Source of the DNA: Parvularculaceae bacterium
GTDB taxonomy: Bacteria > Pseudomonadota > Alphaproteobacteria > Caulobacterales > Parvularculaceae
NCBI GenBank assembly: GCA_028284065.1
Contig: JANQSJ010000005.1
Span: 62,001 to 126,000, forward strand
DNA length: 64,000 bases
Reading direction: 5' to 3'
The position numbers and the translations under genes were made by a program. The notes under the pieces are model-generated. The model saw only the letters and a program-made list of their open reading frames with translations, was not told the origin of the DNA and made no database searches. Shown piece by piece: positions 30,005 to 41,232 of this stretch (position 1 is the first letter of the stretch; each line of letters opens with the position of its first letter).

Positions 30005-30499
30005 ATGAGTCGAACGCGATCGAAAGACCGGATGATGACGACGAATGGCTATGTGCGCGCAGGTTTCCTGGCGATGGCGGCCGGGCTTCTCGGCTTTTTG
30101 ATGCTGCGGCCCGTGGCGACGTCCGTCGCCGCTGAGGCCGACGGGCCGGCGGAAGTCCTCGCCGTCACCTTTTCATCGGCCTGGTGCGCGTCGTGCCGCA
30201 TCCTGAAGCCGCGGCTCGCGCGCGTCATACCGGAGTTCGAAGACGCGCCCGTCAAGTTCGTCGAAATCGACTTCAGCCTTGGCGACGCAGCGGCGGCGCG
30301 AGAGGTTGCGGCGGCCGAGGGGATAGAGGCGATCTTCGATGATGTCGCCGGCGCCACCGGCTTCACGCTGCTTGTCGACCGCGACACTGGCGAGGTGCTC
30401 GAAATGATTACGTCTTCCTACCCGGAAGATGCGATGCGCGCGAGCATCGCCGCTGCGCTCGCCATCGCCGCGCGCACGCCGGCGCGCGCAGACGGCTGA
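30005..30499 (+). CDS. Exported thioredoxin-like protein
   Basis: A 164-residue thioredoxin-fold protein with an N-terminal hydrophobic segment (about 17-43) for export or anchoring. The active site is SSAWCASC with cysteines at 61 and 64, and the cis-proline position is replaced: the GATGFTLLVD strand has Gly-Phe rather than Thr-Pro. Lack of cis-Pro may change redox behaviour. Alternative starts lie at 30032 and 30035. It converges on nothing; a gene-free region with a TPP riboswitch follows. Confidence 0.8.
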   Translation: MSRTRSKDRMMTTNGYVRAGFLAMAAGLLGFLMLRPVATSVAAEADGPAEVLAVTFSSAWCASCRILKPRLARVIPEFEDAPVKFVEIDFSLGDAAAAREVAAAEGIEAIFDDVAGATGFTLLVDRDTGEVLEMITSSYPEDAMRASIAAALAIAARTPARADG

Positions 30500-30764
30500 T
30501 CCCCAAGACCGCCTCGGCTTGTTGTTCTGACTGTAAAGCTGAGTTGACGCGCAAGTCGTCGATTTGTCGGGCTGATTGCAAGGCGTCGCGCGCATAAGTC
30601 GGGCGCGGTCTTTTTGTATGGTCGGGGAAGCCAATGAGATTAGGCGCTTTTTCGCAAAGACGGTTTTTTGCGCCGCCGCATTAGACGAAAGTCTATAGTC
30701 AAAAAGCACCGACATCTGACGATTTTGCTTGCCGGGTCACGCCGGTTGGCGCAAACTTATAACT
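30500..30764. other. Gene-free leader upstream of the orphan TPP riboswitch
   Basis: No convincing gene. The stretch is less GC-rich than the neighbours and holds a perfect TAGAC-gaaa-GTCTA hairpin or operator at 30682-30695 and a T-run (GGTCTTTTTG) near 30607-30616 that could end the upstream thioredoxin transcript. A promoter for the riboswitch transcript should lie here, but I found no convincing -35/-10 pair. Confidence 0.4.
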
Positions 30765-31100
30765 GTTCCGAGGGGCGTCCCGCCTGTCGTAATTCATACG
30801 ACGACTCGTGCGACGCGCATCGAACGCGAACGGATGTTTACGCCGACCGATGCGGCCCATCGTCTGAGGACGGAGGGGTTGAACGCTGCCGGCGAGAATC
30901 GCGACGTCATGGCGCGCCTATGCTGTGCGCCGTGGCAGTGACGATTATCGCCCGTGCGGACGTAGCCCGATGCGGCGCCGCTGAACGAAGCTGGACAAGG
31001 CCGGTTGCGGACGGCACTGCGCGCCAGGGAGCTTGGGCGATTGGGACTGAGACGGACCCTTCGAACCTGATCCGGGTCATGCCGGCGTTAGGGACGGAAC
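30765..31100 (+). promoter_or_regulatory. TPP riboswitch (THI element) with very long P3 arm; no thiamine gene downstream
   Basis: The conserved 3' half is plain: ACTGAGA, ACCCTTCGAACCTGATCC, and GCCGGCGTTAGGGA between 31046 and 31094. The 5' half, GTTCCGAGGGGCGTCC, lies at 30765-30780. P1 forms by GTTCCG (30765-30770) with CGGAAC (31095-31100), and P3 by GTCCC (30777-30781) with GGGAC (31043-31047), extended by GCC/GGC. P3 therefore encloses about 260 bases, far longer than usual. The TAGGGA block has one extra T. No thiamine gene follows on this strand; the next gene is antisense. See findings. Confidence 0.82.
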
Positions 31101-31406
31101 GAATGACGGCGCGATTTGCGCCGCCGACCGCCTGATGGCGGCGCCAGAGCCTTGCGGGGCGCGGTTGCGGCTTCTCAAAGCCGCTCATTCGCCGCTTCGC
31201 GTTGCGGGAGGAAGCTCCCGGCACGGATGGGCAAGGGCGAGGCGGACGGGTCGTTGCCGGGAGACCAGAGCCGTTTCCTTCGCTGCGCCCGGGAGCAGTG
31301 GGAGGAAGCGGTTTCTGGCTGTCAATCGCCCTCATGCTTGTTCGGATCGTGATTGTCGATCTTGCCGCGTGTGCATTGGCGTGCGCGAATGTGAACGCTT
31401 TGCCGC
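31101..31406. other. Gene-free stretch after the orphan riboswitch
   Basis: No supportable gene. Two hairpins follow the aptamer: GGCGC-gattt-GCGCC at about 31107-31121 and GCGGCTT-ctca-AAGCCGC at 31167-31184; neither has a T-run, so Rho-independent termination is not evident. Small frames here (for example 31135-31422) show no family resemblance and Arg-rich shadow-like composition. The stretch could be the decayed remains of a regulated gene. Confidence 0.4.
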
Positions 31407-37621: not shown

Positions 37622-37777
37622 TGGCGCGTTCCCTTTCCTGCGAGGCGTTATCGTGCGGCGCAACGGAACATAGGCGTGGAGGCGAGGTTTTACACTCACC
37701 TCTGCGCGAGCGTCCTCGCAGGCGCGTCGCCGGCGGCCGCGCCTTGTGGGCGATGCGTCGTCTTGCTATTACGCTCG

Positions 37778-37904
37778 AGTTACCGAGGGGCGCCGGCGGA
37801 CCGGCTGAGATCGCGTTCCTTACCGCTGCGATGCAGCGCTTAGGACCCTGACGCGAGCACCCTTTGAACCTGATCCGGTTAGCGCCGGCGTAGGGACGGG
37901 ACGC
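37778..37904 (+). promoter_or_regulatory. TPP riboswitch controlling the Rid-thiC transcript
   Basis: The thiamine pyrophosphate aptamer is intact: CCGAGGGGCGCC at 37783-37794, a compact P3 GCCGG-cgga-CCGGC (37792-37805), CTGAGA at 37805-37810, ACCCTTTGAACCTGATCC from 37859, and GCGCCGGCGTAGGGA ending at 37896. A facultative hairpin, P3a, is formed by TCGCGT (37811-37816) with ACGCGA (37851-37856) and an inner CGCTGC/GCAGCG stem. It lies about 70 bases before the Rid-family gene and 600 before thiC. High TPP should lower expression, as in other bacteria. Confidence 0.93.
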
Positions 37905-37973
37905 GTTGAGGATGCTTGCATTCCATCGACGGCAATCCTGCGCCGGGCGCTGCGACTTCAAGAGGAGCGCCCA

Positions 37974-38465
37974 ATGATGTTTCTTCCGAGTCAAATTCAC
38001 CGAGCAAGCCTTTTGGCGCGTACGTTGGCGACCGCCGGCGTCCTTGCGGCCATTGCGTCGTCCGCGTCCGCCGCCGATCGCGACGTCATCGTGCCGGAGG
38101 CGTGGAAACAGTCTTATGACGAACTCCATTACGCGCCGGCGGTCCGCGCAGGCGACTTGCTCATTCTCTCCGGCGTAGTCGCAGGGCTTGGTCCCGACCC
38201 GGACGACACCGACGCCGCGGCGGGATACGATCGCGCGTTCAAGGCGATCGGCCAGATTCTGACTGAGGCGGGCGCCGACTGGGACGACGTCGTCGAAATC
38301 CAGACGTTCCACACGGACCTGCCGGCGCAAATAAACGAATTTGCAGCCGTCAAGGACCGCTACATCAAGGAGCCGTACCCGGCCTGGACGGCGATCGACA
38401 TCGATCGTCTCTATCCGGATCGCGGTCTCGTTGAGATTAAGATCACCGCTTATGTCGGCGACTGA
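37974..38465 (+). CDS. Exported Rid family (YjgF/UK114) protein
   Basis: A 163-residue Rid-fold protein with a signal peptide (about 1-33, ending SASA). The Rid core is recognisable: YAPAVRAGDLLILSGVV, AFKAIGQILTEAGADWDDVVE, and VEIKITAYV. RidA deaminates reactive enamines using an Arg in a R-x-A-V-x-V block; here this reads WTAIDIDRL with no Arg at that place, so standard RidA activity is doubtful. AGAGGAG just upstream of the ATG is a good ribosome site. It sits between the TPP riboswitch and thiC, implying a thiamine-linked role; export is unusual for the family. Confidence 0.85.
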   Translation: MMFLPSQIHRASLLARTLATAGVLAAIASSASAADRDVIVPEAWKQSYDELHYAPAVRAGDLLILSGVVAGLGPDPDDTDAAAGYDRAFKAIGQILTEAGADWDDVVEIQTFHTDLPAQINEFAAVKDRYIKEPYPAWTAIDIDRLYPDRGLVEIKITAYVGD

Positions 38466-38477
38466 ACCGTCGTCTGA

Positions 38478-41232
<2,755 letters not shown>

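Follow-up and report, generated by a model that had tools for sequence, protein, structure and literature searches.

TPP (vitamin-B1) riboswitches form a riboswitch class of very wide distribution, and they are regarded as switches that act in cis. The element described here agrees with the TPP riboswitch of RF00059 in P1, P2, P3, the CUGAGA motif, the order of P4 and P5 and the core letters, but differs from it by a branched, sequence-conserved P3 domain and by having no constant downstream gene. Extra length on P3 is shared with the extended-P3 TPP riboswitches of Klebsiella and Serratia thiC, of plants and of fungi (PMC12632268, PMC5882874). The Klebsiella extension measures about 25 nt and lies before thiC, whereas our element has a junction with four added helices, a conserved internal loop and no thiamine gene behind it. 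For SAM and B12 there are known riboswitch RNAs with an action away from the downstream gene (PMC8079631). Among them, the Listeria SAM riboswitches SreA and SreB resemble the reading proposed below, being metabolite aptamers that occur as short RNAs able to act in trans, but SreA senses SAM and also controls a downstream transporter operon in cis (PMC8079631). The B12-riboswitch-controlled Rli55 of Listeria likewise has its riboswitch in a non-coding transcript and not before a protein gene; it differs in carrying ANTAR elements that bind EutV (PMC8079631). In Agrobacterium, a TPP riboswitch accumulates as an abundant transcript of about 110 nt (PMC3738593). With the terms searched, we found no free-standing TPP riboswitch in the open literature, which leaves most subscription journals outside its coverage. 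The combination of features reported here did not turn up in that literature; an extended P3 and riboswitch RNAs that act at a distance are each already known.

The element lies in a stretch of 64,000 nucleotides from a Parvularculaceae bacterium, which we call the window and to whose first letter all positions refer. The initial annotation had placed both halves of a TPP aptamer at 30765-31100, and the arms of P1, P2 and P3 were all located there, as follows:

30765..31100, + strand: whole TPP-aptamer element with extended P3; predicted 5′ end of the RNA at 30765
30765..30769, + strand: 5′ strand of P1 (GTTCC), partner 31096-31100, paired in 34/34
30771..30774, + strand: 5′ strand of P2 (AGGG), partner CCCT at 31057-31060, plus C30776 with G31054; 4/4 pairs in 34/34
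30777..30781, + strand: 5′ strand of P3 (GTCCC), partner GGGAC at 31043-31047, invariant in 34/34
31043..31095, + strand: putative TPP-binding core (3′ strand of P3, CUGAGA, 3′ strand of P2, P4, P5, L5); CTGAGA and ACCTGA invariant in 34/34
31096..31100, + strand: 3′ strand of P1 (GGAAC); relatives have GGAAC, GGAGC or GGGAC, all of which pair with GUUCC

The pairing of P1 (GTTCC/GGAAC) and P3 (GTCCC/GGGAC) across the gap holds as proposed, and P1-P3 are paired in all 34 copies. The gap itself, put at about 260 bases, counts 261. Meanwhile, the 5′ half had been said to match the thiC riboswitch almost base for base, which overstates a likeness of only about 12 bases (CCGAGGGGCG). The helices P1/P2/P3 and P4/P5 follow the canonical TPP riboswitch order in the 34 species, and the pocket letters CUGAGA, ACCUGA and GGCG..AGG are invariant or nearly so in the columns of the 34-sequence alignment (A2). 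To judge from these comparisons, the element is one RNA with a TPP-aptamer core, conserved across relatives.

A scan of the window with RF00059 at its gathering cut-off returned the thiC riboswitch (37776-37913) as sole match. Below the cut-off, RF00059 matched 31016-31112 with 43.1 bits against the required 54.3, which leaves the element outside the class by curated score; this lowers its formal membership and not its likeness, since RF00059 does not span the P3 domain. The match consists of a poor local P1/P2/P3 with CCAGGGAGC as makeshift 5′ side, and the copies of relatives score 33-52 bits. As RF00059 alone did not cover both halves, the question of whether they form one element was taken to the relatives. 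There, alignment joins the two halves through the distal P2, and R1, a covariance model built on the element in full, matches from end to end. R1 was run on samples from the order (249 genomes) and the class (289 genomes); it matched 26 genomes of the family end to end with 147-192 bits, while all other matches listed reached at most 84 bits and were mostly 70-150 nt long, as compact TPP aptamers are. With R1 the two long copies, those of the window and its congener G001, reach no more than 63.5 and 64.1 bits because of their enlarged tip. A standard covariance-model scan misreads such elements as weak, truncated matches.

The region between the P3 arms comprises the following parts:

30782..30784, + strand: P3b (GCC), partner 31036-31038 (GCC/GGC)
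30786..30802, + strand: P3c hairpin (GTCG/CGAC), a branch off the P3 arm; 99% of cells paired, one both-sides change
30804..30807, + strand: 5′ strand of P3d, partner 31029-31032; GCUC/GAGC in most relatives, 3/4 pairs in the window
30814..30819, + strand: 5′ strand of P3e (CGCGCA), partner TGCGCG at 31018-31023; one pair alternates GC/AU/GU in the 34
30820..31017, + strand: variable P3 tip, enlarged in the genus of the window; 26% identity over 34 species

The structure made up of P1-P3, P3b-P3e, P4 and P5 is paired in 97.6% of cells in the 34-sequence alignment, with seven pairs that change on both sides, against 32-45% when the same structure is slid by 1-3 columns as a control. Three of the pairs with both-sides changes occur in P3d, where GUUC/GAAC, ACUU/AAGU and GCUU/AGGC replace GCUC/GAGC. 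With P1, P2 and P3 nearly invariant, covariation is a better test of the P3 extension than of the core. What had been taken for an insertion is therefore indeed a very long P3, but not a random insertion: it is mainly a conserved, branched P3 extension domain with covarying helices, common to 34 species, and a variable tip. The window and its congener G001 share a genus-specific arm of the tip, GGGUUGAACGC..GCGGAnnUAGCCC. The insert was also considered as a repeated element and rejected, as the only matches to the element elsewhere in its own genome are the aptamer core of the thiC riboswitch and a 31-base piece of flank.

Two further observations concern this domain. Between P3d and P3e lies an internal loop, GUGCGA/CCAGG (30808-30813 with 31024-31028; A2 columns 45-50 and 275-296), whose conservation beyond the needs of pairing could mark a candidate binding site. 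On the 3′ side, an extra small hairpin, CAUACUAACAAGGUUAGAGCG, is present in eight copies (L064, L065, L071-L075 and L079) as a sub-lineage variant.

Both halves were found in 34 of the 62 Parvularculaceae genomes searched. A DNA search of related genomes recovered a full-length homologue in G001 (74% identity), and in other genera both halves are present but closer together than in the window; the element measures 155-207 nt in 32 species, 336 nt in the window and 334 nt in G001. Outside the family, the samples of 249 order and 289 class genomes held ordinary compact TPP aptamers only, an absence that is strong but not absolute because the many-genome searches used stricter filters. A pattern of the 5′ half searched over 84,980 genomes gave 31 records, every one an element of the set of 34: 28 were assigned by sequence identity, two are truncated at the end of their sequence record, and one (L104) is the same contig as L005 and had escaped the listing of the set solely through the 3′-end pattern. 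The records are labelled Marinicaulis, Amphiplicatus (a member of Parvularculaceae), Parvularcula or Parvularculaceae, and seven only Alphaproteobacteria. Mean pairwise identity over the 34 species is 87% in the 5′ half, 89% in the 3′ aptamer part and 26% in the P3 tip; the thioredoxin-like gene upstream reaches 56% (nucleotides) and the stretch just upstream of the promoter 26.5%, which is chance level. The element is conserved far beyond chance.

Conserved signals also flank the aptamer on both sides:

30729..30734, + strand: putative -35 element (TTGCCG); CTTG stands 36 or 37 bases before P1 in 34/34
30752..30757, + strand: putative -10 element (CAAACT; family consensus CAnnnT), 17-base spacer, from the consensus of 34 upstream regions
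31268..31314, + strand: downstream hairpin, presumed 3′ end of the RNA, kept in 33/34 loci

CAnnnT lies 12-13 bases ahead of the first base of P1 in most of the 34, and together with the -35 element it would form a sigma-70-type promoter with a predicted start at that base (30765). The hairpin stands 6-173 nt past the aptamer in 33/34 loci, with -23 to -39 kcal/mol and compensatory changes, and its 5′ arm is less variable than its 3′ arm. In most species it is followed by no U tract; TTTTTT follows it in the congener G002. It probably marks the 3′ end of the RNA. A genome repeat was ruled out, given that the hairpin matches at one locus only in the genomes searched. Inspection by eye also dismissed a ribosome-binding-site lock, with no consistent start codon past its GAGGAG, and no small ORF behind the aptamer is consistently conserved among the loci of relatives.

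The gene neighborhood is constant on one side of the RNA only. The relevant features of the window are:

30005..30499, + strand: thioredoxin-like gene (PF00085, Pfam), constant upstream neighbor of the RNA
37776..37913, + strand: compact ordinary TPP riboswitch used as comparator (RF00059, 64.2 bits), upstream of a RidA-like gene and thiC

In 34/34 loci a thioredoxin-like homologue precedes the RNA, encoded on the same strand, and a family-wide search found the gene in every RNA-bearing genome. A close homologue of the gene unaccompanied by an intact RNA occurs in five genomes (G002, G024, G041, G050 and G010): the copy in G002 is degenerate, the RNA is absent from G024 and G041, and in G050 the contig ends. 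Since G024 and G041 keep the gene without it, the RNA is dispensable. Downstream, the genes vary among NAGPA (a secreted phosphodiester glycosidase), an outer-membrane barrel, an M20 peptidase, secreted proteins of unknown function, thiC, and antisense DsrE or amine oxidase genes, so that the constant downstream gene expected of a cis-acting riboswitch was not seen in the 34 loci. The antisense gene is an amine oxidase in the window and G001 and of DsrE type in three others. The window copy is an orphan, as first described: no thiamine gene lies behind it, an antisense gene comes next, and about 1.4 kb separate the element from the start of the following gene on the + strand. Farther downstream follows thiC with its own compact TPP riboswitch, while thiE-like genes and thiG are on other contigs.

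The thiC loci themselves showed some variation. In the window, within 37776-38499, a RidA-like gene (Ribonuc_L-PSP, 37974-38465) lies between the thiC riboswitch and thiC, a position that suggests the riboswitch may also control it; no RidA-like gene was seen in this interval in the relatives read. A gene of 254-276 aa overlaps the start of thiC in L042 (8432-11177, reverse complement), L089 and L093, apparently as one operon; it has no Pfam match, appears thioesterase-like by eye and lies behind a compact TPP riboswitch in L042. In genus g7 (L080/L081), G029 has a compact TPP aptamer followed by a small membrane-protein gene (about 136 aa) and then thiC, and in G030 two TPP aptamers lie 2.5 kb from each other.

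What kind of RNA this is can be weighed against several explanations. We see next to no chance that the short local aptamer at 31016-31112 is the true one, with the 5′ half as a separate RNA; RF00059 does place its match there in the window and in relatives, but the local P2 is complete in 19/34 only, the distal P1 and P2 pair in 34/34, and in eight species the extra hairpin stands in place of the local AGGG. An equally remote case is that of a non-functional relic of a thiamine gene leader, which the initial annotation had listed beside action in trans and an unrecognized target. No thiamine gene follows in the window, and a duplication may have given rise to the element, as the thiC riboswitch is found on the same strand at a distance of 6.7 kb; the promoter, aptamer, P3 domain and hairpin are nevertheless conserved across genera, which refutes a relic for the window copy and leaves the other two options. 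It is improbable, though less so, that a former TPP riboswitch now works without TPP, its P3 domain having taken on another role such as binding a protein or a second ligand. The 5′ segment and P3 domain are about as conserved as the aptamer core, and G002 keeps the promoter, a recognizable 5′ segment (GTTCCAAGGAGCACCTCGCCTGTCG) and the end hairpin although CUGAGA is gone and RF00059 finds no TPP match on this copy. Against this, CTGAGA and ACCTGA are unchanged in all 34 other copies, and the G002 copy, altered throughout, may be no more than a decaying one. The genome of G002, which is 66% complete, yielded no thiC; as a hint from this one incomplete genome, the RNA may decay once TPP control has gone.

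Second in rank after a stand-alone RNA comes a cis-acting attenuator of changing genes, that is, a leader of the following + strand gene in which TPP decides whether transcription stops at the hairpin. TPP riboswitches of Alphaproteobacteria can use transcription control (PMC3738593), and the U6 behind the hairpin in G002 would suit a terminator. In nine relatives the nearest + strand gene, soon past the hairpin and within about 350 nt, is NAGPA, and several others have another close + strand gene; a leader function is therefore possible in about half of the species. On the other hand, the gene is antisense or distant in roughly half the genomes, yet aptamer and hairpin stay conserved, and the downstream genes come from several unrelated families, mostly not thiamine genes. 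We consider this explanation credible but doubtful. The best reading, to which we lean with slightly better than even confidence, is a stand-alone TPP-responsive RNA that is produced as a separate short transcript and acts in trans. With no constant downstream gene, and with its own promoter and end hairpin, the element may be a free-standing regulatory RNA.

Such a stand-alone RNA would be driven by its own promoter and begin with the first base of P1, would fold as a TPP aptamer whose P3 arm bears the added branched domain, and would end at the downstream hairpin, giving about 220-300 nt in most species and about 550 nt in the window. Binding of TPP would lock P1/P2/P3 and thereby join the near-invariant 5′ segment to the 3′ half. 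In the TPP-free state, the local hairpin GGGCG-UCC-CGCCU could form in the 5′ segment and GGG/CCC in the 3′ half, and the exchange of folds would expose or hide segments acting in trans on mRNAs or a protein. Four steps of this scheme are inferred, namely that the RNA binds TPP, adopts the alternative fold, is terminated at the hairpin and acts in trans. The two local hairpins are those preferred by RNAalifold and would compete with P2 and P3, which makes an alternative TPP-free fold plausible; both are too invariant for covariation to test. Folding of the single sequence was uninformative (z -1.27); for the 336-nt element, the TPP-type fold lies 7.6 kcal/mol above the unconstrained minimum. 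The hairpin loop CCGGAUC was discarded as anti-aptamer partner of GAUCCGG, the match being lost, by eye, in species with loop GGGCC or AGGCC.

Based on these findings, we tentatively suggest that Parvularculaceae may possess a family-specific, free-standing TPP sensor, whose branched P3 domain would be the output that controls mRNAs or a protein in trans. Possible targets of this output module are, for instance, the thi genes without a riboswitch of their own (thiE-like, thiG). If true, this would be an example from nature of a metabolite aptamer turned independent regulator, with its own promoter, an end hairpin, an added domain and no constant gene.
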